DNA from: Calothrix sp. PCC 7103
GTDB lineage: Bacteria > Cyanobacteriota > Cyanobacteriia > Cyanobacteriales > Nostocaceae
Direction: 5' to 3'
Assembly (NCBI RefSeq): GCF_000331305.1
Contig: NZ_KB217478.1
Coordinates: forward strand, 7,218,317 to 7,282,316
Length of the DNA: 64,000 nt
Within the stretch, counting starts at the first letter, position 1, and the number at the start of each line of letters is the position of its first letter. The notes under the pieces are model-generated. The model made no database searches. It saw only the letters and a list, made by a program, of their open reading frames with translations, and was not told the origin of the DNA. Of the stretch, positions 37,359 to 63,015 are shown piece by piece. The position numbers were made by a program, and so were the translations under genes.

Positions 37359-37469
37359 GTTTCTTTACAAAAGCACATAAAAGTAATGGATTTGGACGAT
37401 TTTGCAATACATTTATTAATTTTTGACGAGGCAAAAAACTGTCACAATAACAACAATAGGATTAATTTC

Positions 37470-37552
37470 CTTGCTAGGGGTGCCTGAGTGAAACCGGGCT
37501 GAGATTACACCCTTAACACCTGAGTCTGGGTAATACCAGCGGAGGGAAGCTC
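37470..37552 (+). promoter_or_regulatory. TPP riboswitch (THI element) in the thiC leader
   Basis: The sequence has the conserved pieces in order: AGGGGTGCCTGAGTG, GGGCTGAGATTACACCC, then CACCTGAGTCTGGGTAATAC and CAGCGGAGGGAAG. The 3' end is 25 bases before the thiC ATG, so it can control translation or early termination in response to thiamine pyrophosphate. Confidence 0.95.
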
Positions 37553-37574
37553 TTTAATGAAGGAAATGATTTAA

Positions 37575-56227: not shown

Positions 56228-58087
56228 ATGAGAAGGCTAATACTAACTTGTTTGTTTGTGATAGGGCTGTGTGCAGCCTTATTCAATTTCGTTAACTTCC
56301 AGGGACTTGGCGCCCAAGGAGAGTTTGAAACGCTCCTCCTTGATTTCCGGGAAGATATCCCCTCTACCAAGTTGCAGCAAGATTTGGCTAAAATCTCGCA
56401 GCAGTTCAACGTCACGCCAAAGCTGGATAATAAATTTTCCGAAAAGGATAACGTTTATATTATCAAAGGTGACAAAGCGCGTCTTAAGCAGTTGCGCTCT
56501 GAATTCGCAAAAGATACCGAATTCATTGAACCTAACTATATTTACAAGATTCCTAAACAAGGTCAAGTTGCAAGGCTCGCAGAATTTCTTGACCCTCGAC
56601 CAGAAGAATCTAAAGAGCCTGGTGCTTCATTCACTGGCGCCAACGACCCTTACTATAGCAAACAATGGCACTTACACAATATTAATGTTGAAGGCGCCTG
56701 GAAACAAACTAAGGGTAGTGGTGTTACCGTTGCTGTGATTGACACGGGTGTTACACAAGTTCGTGATTTGATTGAAACTAAGTTTGTCAAAGGTTACGAC
56801 TTTGTGAACGACCGTGAAAAAGCAAACGATGACAATGGACATGGGACACACGTAGCCGGAACTATTGCTCAAGCAACTAATAATAGTTGGGGTGTTGCGG
56901 GTATTGCCTATGAAGCCAGTATTATGCCTTTAAAGGTTCTTAGTGATTACGGTGGTGGAACTGTTGCTGATATTGCCGAAGCTATTCGCTTTGCTGCTGA
57001 CAACGGCGCTAACGTTATTAATATGAGCTTGGGTGGTGGTGGTGAAAGCCAGTTGATGAAAGAAGCAATTGACTATGCACATAGTAAAGGCGTAGTTATT
57101 ATCGCTGCTGCTGGTAACGAAGACGCTAACGGTGCCGCATATCCTGCACGCTATCCCCACGTTATCGGTGTTTCTGCACTTGGCCCCGATGGAGAAAGGG
57201 CGCCTTATTCTAACTATGGTGCAGGTGTAGATATTTCTGCCCCTGGTGGTAGTGATGCTGGTAAGGTTCTCCAAGCAACCGTTGATATGGATAGCAAAGG
57301 AGAAGAAGTATTCCTTGGTTTGCAAGGTACTAGCATGGCATCTCCCCATGTTGCAGGTGTTGCTGCTTTAGTTCGTGCATCAGGAGTTGAAAATCCAGAT
57401 GAAATTGAAAACGTACTTCTTGGTTCCGCACGAGCTATTCATGAAGATGGTTTAAACTATTACGGCGCCGGACAACTCAACGCCGAAGCCGCAGTTAAGC
57501 AAGCTACTGTTGGTCAAATCACTTTCCAAGACTTTTGGCGCTGGTTACGTGAAAATGGCTATCTCAATCCTCGTTTCTGGATTGATGGTGGTGCATATGC
57601 ACTAGTGCCAAAACTTCTTATGGTTGTAGGTTCTTACCTGCTTGCTTGGTTTCTACGGGTTTACTTCCCATTCTCATGGAGTTGGAGTTTATCGGCAGGT
57701 TTACTTTTTGGTAGCTCAGGTTTATTTCCTCTCAAAGGACTTTATATCTTTGATTTACCACAGTGGCCCTTCCGTGTACTAGGTAGCTCTATTCCTGAAC
57801 TTGGTAATGCTATTCAAGGAACTGATGCATTTAATCCTATCTTCGCAAGCGTACTTATTCCTTTAGGTCTAGTTGCTTTGCTGTTAGGACATCCACAATT
57901 GAAGTGGTTTGCTATTGGTTCTTCCATAGGTATCGCCACATGTTTGGGGGTTAGTTCATTCTCTGACCCTGCTGTATGGGGTTTAGGTGCTGGTTGGATA
58001 TCAAGAATTTTCCTTCTCGTTAATGCCGTCATCTGTTACGGTCTCGCTCACTTTATTGTGACAAACGAAGAAAAAACTGCACAATAA
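56228..58087 (+). CDS. S8 subtilisin-like serine protease with C-terminal membrane helices
   Basis: 619 residues. A signal/anchor at 1-20 (LILTCLFVIGLCAALFNFV) and an I9-like propeptide at about 30-105 precede the S8 domain (about 140-415) with a complete triad: VAVIDTGVTQV (Asp), NGHGTHVAGTIAQ (His), the oxyanion Asn in IIAAAGNEDANGA, and GTSMASPHVAGVAAL (Ser). After it come several hydrophobic segments (about 455-610), an unusual membrane-anchored tail for this family. It may process proteins at the outer face of the plasma membrane. Target unknown. Confidence 0.94.
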   Translation: MRRLILTCLFVIGLCAALFNFVNFQGLGAQGEFETLLLDFREDIPSTKLQQDLAKISQQFNVTPKLDNKFSEKDNVYIIKGDKARLKQLRSEFAKDTEFIEPNYIYKIPKQGQVARLAEFLDPRPEESKEPGASFTGANDPYYSKQWHLHNINVEGAWKQTKGSGVTVAVIDTGVTQVRDLIETKFVKGYDFVNDREKANDDNGHGTHVAGTIAQATNNSWGVAGIAYEASIMPLKVLSDYGGGTVADIAEAIRFAADNGANVINMSLGGGGESQLMKEAIDYAHSKGVVIIAAAGNEDANGAAYPARYPHVIGVSALGPDGERAPYSNYGAGVDISAPGGSDAGKVLQATVDMDSKGEEVFLGLQGTSMASPHVAGVAALVRASGVENPDEIENVLLGSARAIHEDGLNYYGAGQLNAEAAVKQATVGQITFQDFWRWLRENGYLNPRFWIDGGAYALVPKLLMVVGSYLLAWFLRVYFPFSWSWSLSAGLLFGSSGLFPLKGLYIFDLPQWPFRVLGSSIPELGNAIQGTDAFNPIFASVLIPLGLVALLLGHPQLKWFAIGSSIGIATCLGVSSFSDPAVWGLGAGWISRIFLLVNAVICYGLAHFIVTNEEKTAQ

Positions 58088-58368: not shown

Positions 58369-58689
58369 CTACTGAGCAGGAACAGAATCTAAAACTGCTT
58401 GCAAGCGTTCTCGAAACTCTCCTTTGGGATGTCCCCCTTTTACTTCGCCTACAATTTCAAACTCTCCTTCAGGCGCCGAGCATACAATATAAGTTGGCCA
58501 TCCCATCTCTGACTTATCGGGATATTGCTTCAAAAGTATTTGCCGATATTTACGGTAAGTCGCTGTATCCTGCATCTTGACATCAATAAACTCTAAACCA
58601 AGCTCTGCTGATACTTTCTGGTCATAAAAAGCCATTTTGTGACAAATACCGCAATCTTCACTCGAAAACTTAATCACAGAATAAGCCAT
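58369..58689 (-). CDS. Small thioredoxin-like protein
   Basis: 106 residues, with YSVIKFSSEDCGICHKMAFY giving a CxxC active site (CGIC) after the first strand, and GWPTYIV as the cis-Pro segment. A soluble thioredoxin fold without a signal peptide, probably a cytoplasmic disulphide reductase or a bacilliredoxin-like protein. The first gene left of the sRNA array. Confidence 0.85.
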   Translation of the reverse strand: MAYSVIKFSSEDCGICHKMAFYDQKVSAELGLEFIDVKMQDTATYRKYRQILLKQYPDKSEMGWPTYIVCSAPEGEFEIVGEVKGGHPKGEFRERLQAVLDSVPAQ

Positions 58690-59009
58690 ATCTTTAGTAG
58701 TGTTTTAGTACTAAACAACGTATAGGTTGTAGCTAAATTTAATATCTAATAATTTATCTTATATTTAATGCTGTTTGATTGTCCAAAAACTTGTAATAGT
58801 GCTAATATATAAAAATCTACTAAAAATCTACCGTTGTCTCACATTCCGGCAGCTAGTATTAGTCCTTACTAATTAGTACAAAGAAAAAAGGCTAATTCCG
58901 GAACATTTTTGAAGGTTAAGTATTTATTCGATTCTTTCATCAATAAACAGGCGCTCTACCAAGGGAGTGAGTTATTAAGGTGTTGTACATGTGGGTGCAA
59001 ATAGCCATG

Positions 59010-59068
59010 AAAAAACCCCTAGCGGATGGCAGTCTACTAGGGGAGTAAGTTATTAGGGTGCATCTACC
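59010..59068 (-). ncRNA. nsiR1: nsiR1-like sRNA unit 8 (farthest from hetF)
   Basis: On the minus strand: predicted start at GGTAGATGCACCC, then a terminator hairpin with CTAG-GGG stems and a T-run. The upstream box reads TCCTGA instead of TCCGGA, so this copy may be weaker. Confidence 0.75.
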
Positions 59069-59220
59069 ACTTTATTGTTCGCTGCATAGTACTCGTTTTC
59101 AGGACGAATCTTAGAAACCTGGTTTCTTTAGATAGCTTGTAATAGAAATGAGTATTTCGCGCAGAAACTAGGTTTCTTAGCTTGAGATAGTTGTCAATTT
59201 CGTCTCGTTATGATTACAAT

Positions 59221-59277
59221 AAAAAACCCTAGCGGATGGAGATCTACTAGGGAGTGAGTTATCAGGGTGCATCTACC
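59221..59277 (-). ncRNA. nsiR1: nsiR1-like sRNA unit 7
   Basis: Minus strand GGTAGATGCACCCTGATAAC, then a hairpin (stem CCCTAG/CTAGGG) and T6. The promoter box is degenerate (TCCTGA). The stem is one pair shorter than in unit 6. Confidence 0.75.
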
Positions 59278-59364
59278 ATCTACTTGTTCGTTATCTAAGG
59301 GTCATCTTCAGGACAAATTGGCGTATAACTTCAAAATTTGGTTCAAGGTCGTAAATATAGCCAT

Positions 59365-59424
59365 AAAAAAACCCCTAGCGGATGGCAGTCTACTAGGGGA
59401 GTGAGTTATCAGGGTGCATCTACC
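59365..59424 (-). ncRNA. nsiR1: nsiR1-like sRNA unit 6
   Basis: Minus strand start at GGTAGATGCACCC; hairpin stem CCCCTAG/CTAGGGG; T-run of seven. TCCGGA at 59455-59460, exactly 30 bases upstream of the predicted start. Confidence 0.85.
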
Positions 59425-59521
59425 ATTTACTTGTTCTCTTGATAACCAGTGCTTTCCGGATATTTTTGTTCTTATTTTGTTGCTATTGATGGCAAAGATT
59501 TTAGCAGCACATTAAATGGAC

Positions 59522-59583
59522 AAAAAAATTCCCTCAGTTGGTTGTTACCGTCCGAGGGAGTGAATTATTAGGGTGCATCTACC
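59522..59583 (-). ncRNA. nsiR1: nsiR1-like sRNA unit 5
   Basis: The single-stranded 5' part is conserved, but the hairpin uses a different stem (CCCTC/GAGGG) and loop, so pairing is kept while sequence changes. TCCGGA at 59614-59619, 30 bases upstream. Confidence 0.85.
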
Positions 59584-59667
59584 ATCTACTTGTTCGTGCT
59601 TACATCTACCAGTTCCGGAAAATTTTTATTTCAAGCGAGAAATTTTTTGCATCACCAAAAAATGCCC

Positions 59668-59728
59668 AAAAAACCCCTAATTAGACATTTAGTCCATTAG
59701 GGGAGTGGGTTATCAGGGTGCATCTACC
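59668..59728 (-). ncRNA. nsiR1: nsiR1-like sRNA unit 4
   Basis: Conserved GGTAGATGCACCCTGATAAC; stem CCCCTAAT/ATTAGGGG with T6. TCCGGA at 59759-59764, 30 bases upstream of the predicted start. Confidence 0.85.
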
Positions 59729-59775
59729 ATCTACTTGTTCTTAAAGCTACAAGCCTATTCCGGAAAAAATTGCAT

Positions 59776-59835
59776 AAAAAAACCCTTAGCCGTAATTAAA
59801 CAGCTAAGGGAGTGAGTTATCAGGGTGCATCTACC
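59776..59835 (-). ncRNA. nsiR1: nsiR1-like sRNA unit 3
   Basis: Conserved 5' part; stem CCCTTAGC/GCTAAGGG, different from its neighbours but fully paired; T7. TCCGGA at 59866-59871, 30 bases upstream. Confidence 0.85.
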
Positions 59836-59959
59836 ATATACTTGTTCTCAAAATTACAAGCCTATTCCGGATAAATTATAGAAACCGGGTTTCTTTTTTG
59901 AAATATGTAATCAAAATCATAATTTTGGTCATAAACCCGGTTTCTTGTTTTATACGCAC

Positions 59960-60018
59960 AAAGAACCCCTAGTGGAAAGTTTCCAACTAGGGGAGGTTAT
60001 TATCAGGGTGCATCTACC
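59960..60018 (-). ncRNA. nsiR1: nsiR1-like sRNA unit 2
   Basis: Stem CCCCTAGT/ACTAGGGG with inner GGAAAG/TTTCC pairing; T-run interrupted (TTCTTTG), so termination may be weaker. TCCGGA at 60049-60054, 30 bases upstream. Confidence 0.82.
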
Positions 60019-60220
60019 ATATACTTGTTCTCAAAATCACAAGCATTATCCGGATAAATTAAAAAACGAAAATCCCTAATCATCTTGTACTAGAGTATTT
60101 TGCAGTTATTTTCTGTAAAATACTGAGTATTTGTAGTGAAACTATATTGTTTTTGAGATAAATTAGTTACATGGGATTGATAAGTGAGAGCTTTCGGCGC
60201 CCAACCGCATGTATAAATAG

Positions 60221-60277
60221 AAAAAACCCCCATTTGATTTAAACAATTGGGGGACTGAAGATTAAGGTGCATCTACC
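60221..60277 (-). ncRNA. nsiR1: nsiR1-like sRNA unit 1, within the hetF leader region
   Basis: The copy nearest hetF has diverged: start GGTAGATGCACCTTAATC, stem CCCCCA/TGGGGG, T6. TCCGGA at 60309-60314, 31 bases upstream. It lies 195 bases before the hetF start on the opposite strand, so it would be antisense to any long hetF leader. Confidence 0.82.
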
Positions 60278-60471
60278 ACTAATGATGTTCGGCGCCGAGT
60301 CGATGATATCCGGATAAACTGGTAAAAGCTTGGGTAATACCTAAGAGCGTGAAACATTCCGCGATGAGGATGCATCTAAGGTATTAGTAGGGAAGGGAAC
60401 ATTTATAGAGATATTTATGAATGAATATTCCCATTTCAATCAAGTGATTTAGGAGACGAACAGGAGAAGTT

Positions 60472-63015
60472 GTGACCCAGGAATTTCACATTTCCGTAAC
60501 ACTGGTAGGACAAAATGACTACTTGGTACGAACGGAACAAGTCGCGTCTGGGGTGCCATTAGCGGAAGAACTGGTGACTTGGCCTGTAGCTGAATGGTTA
60601 GCTGCTGCTGGACATCTTATGAATGACCCGCTTAAGTCCGTGTTGCAGGGAGATGCAATGGTGCGGAACTCGGTCAACTTAGCGGCGCTGGGTCAACAAT
60701 TATATAACGAACTTTTTCAAGGCACTCTCAGAGATAGTTGGATTACTGCACAAGGCATTGCACAGAACCATCAACAAGTTCTGCATTTGCGTATTGGAAT
60801 TAAAGATAATCGATTAGCGCGCTTACCTTGGGAGGTTATGCACGCTGGTGACCGTCCCATTGCCACAGGTCCCTATATTTCATTTTCTCGCTATCAAACT
60901 GGAGTAGCAGGCGCCTCACGTTTACCATCAACGAATATGCCCATACCACCTGACGAAGGTGGAATTAAGGTATTAATGGTGCTTGCCTCTCCAACCGATT
61001 TAGTGCGCTTAGATTTGCTCAAGCAAGAAGCTATTAAACTTCAAGCCGAACTAAATCGTCAAACACCAAACATTACCGAAGGTGGTCATTTTTTCCCAGA
61101 TATACAGTTGCACTTTCTTGAACAACCGGGACGGGAAGAATTGACGCAAGCCTTAGAACAAGGGCGCTATCATATTTTGCATTACTCAGGTCACAGTAAC
61201 TTGGGTGCAAACGGTGGTGAAATTTATCTTGTAAATCGACGCACTGGTTTAACAGAGACTTTAACTGGTGATGATTTAGCTGGTTTACTGGTTAACAATA
61301 ACATCCAAATGGCGGTGTTTAATTCATGTTTGGGAGCTTATGGCGCCAGCACAGGCACTACAGAAGCGGGAGAGCAAAGTTTAGCTGAGAGTTTAGTTAA
61401 ACGGGGTATTCCTAGTGTCTTAGCGATGTCCGAACGAATTCCAGACGAAGTAGCGCTAACACTAACACAATTGTTCTATCGTAATCTCAGCCAAGGGTAT
61501 CCAATTGATTTGTGCGTAAGTCGTGTACGTCAGGGATTAATTTCCGCTTACGGTTCGCACCAAATGTATTGGGCTTTACCAATTTTATATCTCCAATCAG
61601 AATTTAATGGTAATTTAAGCCCTGGATTATATGTACAGCAAAGAAGTGAATTATTGCCTGAGTACGGTGAACTACCAAATATAAGGGCAACAAATGCACT
61701 ATATAGTAATATCGGTGATGATGCTCAAATGTCATTACCAATCAATGATGTCATGTCGAGGTCATTGGGACAAAATGACTTAGAACTTGATTGGTTAGGA
61801 GAAGAAACTTGGGGTGACTTAGTTGACGAAATCGAAGATTATGATGACCCAAGTTATGCTGATGATTCGGCGATAGTTTCCGATTTATTTCGCCAACTCG
61901 ACCAGCAAAAAACGGTAAGTGAACAAACTCCAATAAATACTTCTATCCTTGACGACGACGAAGATGATGATAGTATCCCTGGTGTTGAAGTCTCTGATGA
62001 TTTAACTTCTTTAGACCGCGAAGTCGAAAAATGGCGCCGAGAAAGAGCGGCAAGGGAGTCAGAATCTTTAGTGCCAAATACTCTCCAGGGTAGCGAAATG
62101 ACCGTTGGTAACACTCAGGGGATGACGACAAACATCGCAACACCTTATGACCCAATTAGCATTAGCGAACCAAACGTACCACGTCGCAAATCAAGAAAAT
62201 TAATACCACTCATTGGACTTGTAGGAGCAGGTGCAATTACATTTGCTGTCGGTCTTAACTGGTGGCAAAGTCAACCAAACACGTTATCTAACCTACCTCA
62301 AATAACGGCGCCAGATTACAGTAAAATTAATTTAGAGAGAGAAAAAACTGAAAAAGTGACAGCATTTGCCACTGAAAGACTTAATCAAGGTGATTTAGAC
62401 ACAGCATTAAAAGCCGTCGATGCCTTATTAAATCGTAATGCACTTGCAGAGGCAGAGTCTGTACTTAAACAAGTACCCCAGCGAAACATCGATAATCCAT
62501 CCGTCAGTTTCTCATTCGGGCGCCTTGCATGGCAATCGATACAAGCAGGTGACAAAAAATATAGTATTGATGATGCTCGTCGTTACTGGAATACAGCATT
62601 TAAAGCTAAACCAGACTCTATAGTATATGCTAACGCTTTAGGTTTTGCTTACTATGCAGAAGGTAATATTAATTTAGCTAATGATTCTTGGTTTCAAGCT
62701 TTAAGTATTGCTGCAAAAGACCAACAGCCAAAAGTCTCAAACATGGCAGCAGCAAACGCATCGGTAGTACCACAGCAACGCCAAGACCTAATCGCTCATG
62801 CTGGACTAGCGCTAGGATTATATAAATCAGCGCGCTCACAACCCCCTGCAAAACGTGAGCGATATATCGACGAAGCAGTAAAATTACAACAAAAAGTAAT
62901 AAGCGAAGACCCAGTAAGCTTCCAACCCGATAAACTCAATCAAAATTGGTTGTGGACTCCAAAAATTGCTCAAGACTGGAAATCATTATCAAAAACACCC
63001 AGTCCGCGACGGTAA
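60472..63015 (+). CDS. hetF: HetF, CHAT-domain heterocyst differentiation protease
   Basis: The 847-residue protein begins at GTG 60472 behind AGGAGAAG. Its CHAT (caspase-HetF-associated-with-TPR) domain occupies about residues 100-385; HILHYSGHSNLG gives the catalytic His (about 241) and MAVFNSCLGAYG the Cys (about 286). An acidic disordered region follows (about 480-560), then one membrane segment (about 578-598, LIPLIGLVGAGAITFAVGLN) and TPR-like helices to the end. In Anabaena PCC 7120 HetF promotes heterocyst formation together with PatA/HetR turnover and affects cell division. The sRNA array in front confirms the identity. Confidence 0.93.
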   Translation: MTQEFHISVTLVGQNDYLVRTEQVASGVPLAEELVTWPVAEWLAAAGHLMNDPLKSVLQGDAMVRNSVNLAALGQQLYNELFQGTLRDSWITAQGIAQNHQQVLHLRIGIKDNRLARLPWEVMHAGDRPIATGPYISFSRYQTGVAGASRLPSTNMPIPPDEGGIKVLMVLASPTDLVRLDLLKQEAIKLQAELNRQTPNITEGGHFFPDIQLHFLEQPGREELTQALEQGRYHILHYSGHSNLGANGGEIYLVNRRTGLTETLTGDDLAGLLVNNNIQMAVFNSCLGAYGASTGTTEAGEQSLAESLVKRGIPSVLAMSERIPDEVALTLTQLFYRNLSQGYPIDLCVSRVRQGLISAYGSHQMYWALPILYLQSEFNGNLSPGLYVQQRSELLPEYGELPNIRATNALYSNIGDDAQMSLPINDVMSRSLGQNDLELDWLGEETWGDLVDEIEDYDDPSYADDSAIVSDLFRQLDQQKTVSEQTPINTSILDDDEDDDSIPGVEVSDDLTSLDREVEKWRRERAARESESLVPNTLQGSEMTVGNTQGMTTNIATPYDPISISEPNVPRRKSRKLIPLIGLVGAGAITFAVGLNWWQSQPNTLSNLPQITAPDYSKINLEREKTEKVTAFATERLNQGDLDTALKAVDALLNRNALAEAESVLKQVPQRNIDNPSVSFSFGRLAWQSIQAGDKKYSIDDARRYWNTAFKAKPDSIVYANALGFAYYAEGNINLANDSWFQALSIAAKDQQPKVSNMAAANASVVPQQRQDLIAHAGLALGLYKSARSQPPAKRERYIDEAVKLQQKVISEDPVSFQPDKLNQNWLWTPKIAQDWKSLSKTPSPRR

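Follow-up and report, generated by a model that had tools for sequence, protein, structure and literature searches.

The small-RNA array that lies opposite hetF in Calothrix sp. PCC 7103 very probably makes NsiR1, and would be one locus of a wider family that served as an ancestral output of the HetR system and was later specialised in heterocyst formers. The array itself is the expected ortholog; the distribution that it exposed matters more. Sequence, synteny and co-occurrence together make it likely that NsiR1 and its DIF1 promoter form an ancestral, near-constant companion of HetR that predates heterocysts and is anchored at hetF and at cobM. The copy at hetF would have expanded to an array, and heterocyst formers would have inherited the circuit and gained a trans site in the hetF leader, with HetR's original role kept elsewhere.

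Within the window, by which we mean the whole 64,000-nucleotide stretch of DNA that was analysed, the array consists of eight minus-strand units spanning positions 59008-60278 beside hetF (Table 1). All eight match Rfam family RF02399 (NsiR1) over model positions 1-60 at 48.2-67.9 bits (E 2.1e-6 to 2.7e-11), above the curated gathering cut-off of 39 bits, which bears out the eight nsiR1-type units that an earlier note had described from the letters alone. By the Rfam match each unit is 60-64 bases long, and the start-to-start spacings from the hetF side outward are 259, 183, 107, 145, 159, 147 and 209 bases. The opening 12 bases, GGTAGATGCACC, are identical in all eight, so that the conserved 20-base 5' segment claimed for the units stood in its first part, the full 20-mer being exact in only four. 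A 3' hairpin also folds in every unit, as claimed, with minimum free energy (MFE) z-scores from -0.96 to -4.04; several of the hairpins are therefore unexceptional against shuffled sequences, and the T-run said to follow each of them is broken in unit 2 (TTCTTTG). Two further features went beyond that description: a degenerate ninth unit, which keeps the post-seed part CACCTTAATAACTCACTCCCTTGG and has lost both seed and terminator, and a seed-like element in the hetF leader. Reading the array as CRISPR or as transposon repeats was considered and rejected: seed, hairpin and box are common to the units, all of which match Rfam. Inverted repeats, AGAAACCGGGTTT/AAACCCGGTTTCT, which resemble dispersed intergenic repeats, lie between NsiR1 units at window positions 59880-59945 and about 59110-59180 and lengthen two of the array spacings. 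The same Rfam scan returned a TPP riboswitch (RF00059, 62.2 bits) at 37466-37564 on the plus strand.

Table 1. Features of the hetF-NsiR1 region, in window coordinates.
Feature	Position	Strand	Remarks
Subtilase-DUF5942 protein gene	56228..58087	+	Pfam; within the hetF-array syntenic block
Small protein gene, far side of array	58369..58689	-	thioredoxin-like by appearance only; no Pfam match
Degenerate ninth unit	~58940..58982	-	repeat family D2; no Rfam match
NsiR1 unit 8	59008..59069	-	RF02399 62.1 bits; box TCCTGA 59099-59104
NsiR1 unit 7	59218..59278	-	RF02399 55.6 bits; box TCCTGA 59308-59313
NsiR1 unit 6	59364..59425	-	RF02399 67.9 bits; box TCCGGA 59455-59460
NsiR1 unit 5	59523..59584	-	RF02399 49.8 bits; box TCCGGA 59614-59619
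NsiR1 unit 4	59666..59729	-	RF02399 50.4 bits; box TCCGGA 59759-59764
NsiR1 unit 3	59775..59836	-	RF02399 67.3 bits; box TCCGGA 59866-59871
NsiR1 unit 2	59958..60019	-	RF02399 58.4 bits; box TCCGGA 60049-60054
NsiR1 unit 1 (nearest hetF)	60219..60278	-	RF02399 48.2 bits; GCACCTT seed variant
DIF1 box TCCGGA, unit 1	60309..60314	-	39 bases ahead of seed T
hetF leader element GGATGCATCTA	60368..60378	+	matches NsiR1 seed complement except at one base; candidate trans target site
hetF	60472..63015	+	GTG start; divergent from array; NCBIfam NF045509

Each array unit carries its own DIF1 (TCCGGA-type) box as a putative promoter. As previously described, the box is exact ahead of the six units nearest hetF and reads TCCTGA, one change away, ahead of the two farthest. 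The earlier figure of 30-31 bases, counted from where the box ends up to the first G, agrees with our own measure of 38-39 bases from the first T of the box to the seed T; this distance is 38 bases in seven units and 39 in one, the values for units 7 and 8 being hand counts from the sequence. A control search with the box-plus-seed pattern written backward gave zero matches in the Calothrix sp. PCC 7103 genome. An exact TCCGGA stood 35-40 bases ahead of the seed in 300 of 449 seed-bearing stretches, and at 30 bases in one more, in a count that dropped stretches with no TTTT run near their end and so lost unit 2 of the window and admitted leader elements (the window's row comprises seven units plus the leader element, and the row for named hetF loci is diluted likewise). 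Among shuffled upstream sequences the box appeared at that spacing in 44 of 8980.

Outside the window's family, which we take to be Nostocaceae, 60/60 loci each centred on an Rfam hit carry the exact seed, TAGATGCACC, at the expected place, as do all 11 dispersed hits of the own genome. This constancy is partly expected, given that the seed counts towards the Rfam score and that the 60 loci come from the stronger hits. An alignment of 48 units cannot serve to test it, most of its members having been picked for their exact first nine letters. Across diverse NsiR1 loci the consensus fold from RNAalifold comprised only 3 pairs with weak covariation, because the hairpins differ and do not align, and was set aside as proof of structure. 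An accessible seed was not shown in MFE structures, where the first 13 nt were unpaired in 0/7 window units, 22/260 units of named hetF loci and 4/30 units from outside the order; this follows from the ability of GGU to pair with ACC around an AGAUGC loop. A trans-acting RNA with several targets would be expected to combine, as here, a constant seed with a terminator that is free to vary.

The identity of the neighbouring gene is clear, the HetF protein scoring 1412.6 bits against the NCBIfam equivalog NF045509 (cut-off 1200) with a CHAT domain present. A search of named genomes with this protein kept 80 loci out of 167 relatives, the nearest of those kept including Dulcicalothrix desertica PCC 7102 and Calothrix PCC 7716 (97% identity). 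Seed-bearing or seed-like units stood opposite hetF in 79 of the 80 loci and in none at L089; at L038, for which the upstream piece is short, the sole seed-like unit is the leader element. A head-to-head array of varying copy number is common to named hetF loci, and 73/80, counted by eye, include a unit with GCACCTT instead of GCACCCT, usually the one nearest hetF. Together, the Rfam matches, the HetF equivalog and the shared arrangement support the earlier reading of the window's array as the orthologous nsiR1 locus.

The arrangement extends well beyond the window's family. Among 291 genomes of the window's GTDB order, the window hetF found a match at E <= 0.001 in 264, a number that will include other CHAT-domain proteins. 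In at least 28 genomes from seven other families the best hetF match and NsiR1 lie head-to-head, 161-1113 bases apart, these cases having been picked by eye from the listed rows with misses uncounted; in some genomes, for instance G033, G060 and G122, hetF lies apart from NsiR1. Crinalium has the block of subtilase, thioredoxin-like gene, NsiR1 and hetF seen in the window, and the same block, with the small gene on the far side of the array in its syntenic place, recurs in one genome outside the order (G355). Also outside the order, G335 has the hetF-NsiR1 pair, G330 has both this and a cobM-lgt pair, and G456 and G517 have NsiR1 with a cobM neighbour. Given that the same neighbours occur inside and outside the order, the pattern is hard to explain except by descent.

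The cobM-linked gene came from the remaining copies in the own genome (11.58 Mb), which holds 19 NsiR1 matches at E <= 0.001, eight in the array and 11 elsewhere, five of these 11 exceeding the Rfam cut-off. One of them is a solo copy, carrying an exact TCCGGA, in the lgt-cobM interval, where it stands head-to-head with cobM; most other dispersed copies have a TCCTGA-like box. A 51-55 nt NsiR1 match beside cobM was present, from the matches listed, in 20/20 named Nostocales-type genomes. When these 20, drawn from the 80 named genomes, were surveyed together with the own genome and three more from outside the window's family, the solo loci had cobM as a neighbour in 24/24, lgt on the opposite side in 20/24 and TCCGGA in 24/24. 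We rejected NsiR8 and NsiR9 as identities for this gene, as those RNAs are given as 171 and 122 nt in the available text (PMC4734099) versus Rfam matches of 51-55 nt. No description of a cobM-linked solo NsiR1 gene was found in the literature searched.

Several other placements were observed. On the own-genome contig C12 (1.56 Mb), two NsiR1-like units with TCCTGA boxes lie upstream of a ferritin-like gene (PF13668; L009:4063-4278, plus strand). A second conserved array location, in two families, was seen at L161 (genome G055) and L172 (Crinalium) beside a metal-sensing repressor gene (PF02583 in L172), and in G137 a DIF1-NsiR1 unit sits just upstream of a same-strand gene that we named glnB-like by eye (L150:1551, minus strand). 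Four genomes of family f15 (G084, G160, G185 and G042) have 15-30 DIF1-NsiR1 modules each, many of the listed ones in long arrays. A separate seed-bearing class has a GGAGAG-type hairpin and no DIF box (L014, L147:317 on the plus strand in Crinalium, L140 and G262). In the own genome it forms three tandem units with different upstream sequence behind a gatB-like gene, also named by eye (L014:4245-4885, minus strand), and in L147 it again lies behind such a gene; the class falls short of the NsiR1 cut-off and could represent an older relative of NsiR1 under different regulation.

We then compared the distribution of NsiR1 with that of HetR (PF03574), a gene for which is present in the own genome (G000:C7:5911726). 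HetR was found in 163 of the 291 order genomes. An NsiR1 search of the same genomes with stricter filters matched 198, of which 181 exceed the cut-off. Every HetR-bearing genome was matched (163/163), as were 35 of the 128 HetR-lacking ones, 20 at E < 1e-5 and 15 only above 1e-5; the RNA alone thus does not require HetR. The box-plus-seed module, TCCGGA-N26-38-TAGATGCACC, is stricter than the Rfam match and followed HetR. It occurred in 160/291 order genomes, the backward control in 0/291, and in a 2x2 table that ignores shared ancestry 154 genomes had both module and HetR, nine HetR only, six the module only and 122 neither. Of the genomes with the module only, four (G031, G054, G144, G174) reach a completeness of at least 97%, whereas two (G199, G258) stay below 90%. 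A draw of 292 genomes from the phylum, which overlaps the order draw, gave 61 with both, three with HetR only, one with the module only and 227 with neither, again with no account of shared ancestry; here the backward control matched 3/292. In the same class but outside the order, the module was present in 10/11 HetR-bearing genomes and in 0/45 others, many of these 45 being small genomes of one family (f41). The one HetR-bearing exception, G398, has six NsiR1 matches, those inspected having changed boxes. The NsiR1 search outside the order, with G345 left out, matched 10/10 HetR-bearing and 0/4 HetR-lacking genomes.

The module and HetR occur together in Crinalium epipsammum PCC 9333 (G048), Allocoleopsis franciscana PCC 7113 (G065), Oscillatoria nigro-viridis PCC 7112 (G281), Phormidium yuhuli AB48 (G097) and Oscillatoria acuminata PCC 6304 (G113), strains assigned by 100% matches of non-chromosomal contigs to a plasmid collection (eight compared, three without a match). 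To our knowledge, none of these five strains forms heterocysts. NsiR1 is usually described, as in the earlier note, as heterocyst-specific; an occurrence in heterocyst formers only does not agree with the module in these five strains and in genomes outside the order. Heterocyst formers are described as one monophyletic group in the available text of a recent paper (PMC11298460). By this comparison, the NsiR1 family appears to be confined neither to the hetF array nor to heterocystous cyanobacteria.

The same distribution might arise if the units outside Nostocales were a recurrent seed-plus-terminator design and not related by descent, the agreement with HetR then reflecting shared ancestry of large filamentous genomes. 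The hairpins are wholly different between loci with weak covariation, some units in the HetR-lacking families f32 and f18 match RF02399, the L014 class lacks the box, and the module-HetR tests take no account of the tree. We consider this explanation very unlikely, however, because two loci keep their neighbours inside and outside the order (subtilase, thioredoxin-like gene, NsiR1 and hetF in one, NsiR1, cobM and lgt in the other), the reversed pattern is almost absent from both draws, and within the order the module is found in only 6/128 genomes that lack HetR.

The position of unit 1 relative to the hetF start would fit antisense pairing with the hetF leader, the reference start site at -256 being that of PCC 7120 (PMC8406250, available text). 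On this basis the array could work in cis only, covering the hetF leader while the distal units are spare or decaying; the hetF-proximal unit, with its GCACCTT, is distinctive and falls within the likely leader, the farthest remnant has decayed, and units 7 and 8 have TCCTGA boxes. Such a restriction is unlikely in our view, as distal units retain the seed, and so do loci remote from hetF, and in PCC 7120 the identical central NsiR1 copies are reported to repress alr3234 in trans (PMC9045159, available text). The same available text that places the start site also describes a hetF reporter that was little changed when the -10 box of nsiR1.1 was replaced or removed in PCC 7120 (PMC8406250), a result that argues against strong action in cis on the reporter.

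A trans route to hetF may be offered by the leader element, GGATGCATCTA, which with at most one change occurs in 74 of the 80 named hetF leaders and in the window, 82-116 bases before the start. Among the 80 named loci examined it is absent from the leaders of L039, L045 and L085; L064, L089 and L092 were left unjudged because the match did not begin at the start codon. No separate element was found in four hetF leaders checked outside the window's family. Duplex prediction used 77 of 81 leaders, L064, L079, L089 and L092 being dropped for an unmatched start codon, and the best predicted NsiR1-leader duplex covers the element in 70 of them. The duplex energies are modest (median z -1.5; 7/77 beat all 40 shuffles), and strong claims for the element on that ground were set aside. 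The element may be a trans target of NsiR1 or a protein site. The element GATGCATC is a perfect palindrome, and we give a little under an even chance to its being bound by a regulatory protein instead of being targeted by NsiR1. The modest energies and the four leaders outside the family point that way, as does a mismatch to the seed that stays constant in nearly every leader, with L048 as the exception; against it, a 10/11 match to the seed complement on the sense strand of a known NsiR1-target mRNA would have to be coincidence, and the best predicted duplex covers the element in most leaders.

These data allow us to propose how the array may function. Its product would be NsiR1, a small RNA of about 57-62 nt whose weakly structured 5' segment contains a nearly constant UAGAUGCACC core and whose 3' terminator hairpin varies. 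By analogy with PCC 7120, the units most likely give separate transcripts, each from a DIF1-type promoter dependent on HetR and HetZ; HetR would switch on these promoters via HetZ, so that they fire early in developing heterocysts. The hetF-proximal unit probably runs antisense to the hetF leader, which should reduce HetF and allow HetR to rise, and all copies would act through the seed on other mRNAs. The fall in HetF, the accumulation of HetR and the faster commitment that would follow in heterocyst formers are reported for PCC 7120 and inferred here. The solo cobM copy, the dispersed copies and the arrays of HetR-bearing strains that form no heterocysts have the same seed and mostly the same promoter box. 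The presence of these parts in such strains makes it probable that the circuit was inherited rather than newly made for heterocysts.

NsiR1 was named and has been studied as heterocyst-specific, yet it is matched in each of the 163 HetR-bearing genomes drawn from the order. Such a short RNA, with its conserved seed, its HetR-type promoter box and, in many genomes, a site next to hetF, might serve to read out HetR activity in non-heterocystous species and lead to HetR targets, and it suggests how a developmental circuit was put together from an earlier one. Relatives of the model strain provide a second point of entry in the solo gene linked to cobM. What hetR and patX do in species that form no heterocysts has been called a mystery (PMC11298460, available text).

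The closest known system is the NsiR1 array of PCC 7120, which according to the available text of two reports has 12 copies in the same place beside hetF (PMC9045159, PMC8406250), with individual DIF1 promoters active early in heterocyst differentiation (PMC9045159); its NsiR1.1 is reported to be antisense to the hetF leader and to lower HetF. NsiR1 is described as expressed in proheterocysts under nitrogen stress, in dependence on HetR, and as a repressor of a hetP-like gene besides hetF. Compared by description, both arrays are tandem, head-to-head with hetF and composed of RF02399 units of about 60 nt with individual DIF1 promoter boxes and a distinct hetF-proximal copy. The Calothrix array differs in having eight intact units, not twelve, with uneven spacings of 107-259 bases, which accords with the copy number and spacing of its own that had been proposed for it; two of its boxes read TCCTGA, a ninth unit survives as a remnant, and identical copies do not form a long run. 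Outside heterocystous cyanobacteria, the parts of the literature available to us hold one NsiR1 report, though older papers may contain an earlier one: the NsiR1-like RNA162 of Limnospira indica PCC 8005, a 57 nt RNA from the radiation transcriptome of a non-heterocystous strain (PMC8400943). RNA162 is mentioned as a single gene, and the available text of that report makes no mention of arrays, a promoter box, linkage to hetF or spread with HetR.

A further comparison is with PatX, beside which NsiR1 appears to be a second old companion of HetR, in the form of an RNA. Elhai and Khudyakov reportedly described PatX in 2018 as a HetR companion peptide with a DIF1 promoter. The available text of a later paper likewise treats it as a HetR companion peptide with a DIF1 promoter and a link to HetR that predates heterocyst formers, the only RG(S/T)GR protein described with a link of that age (PMC7761841). 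NsiR1, as found here, has a similar distribution; PatX, however, is a peptide inhibitor of HetR, and NsiR1 an RNA with mRNAs, that of hetF among them, as its targets.
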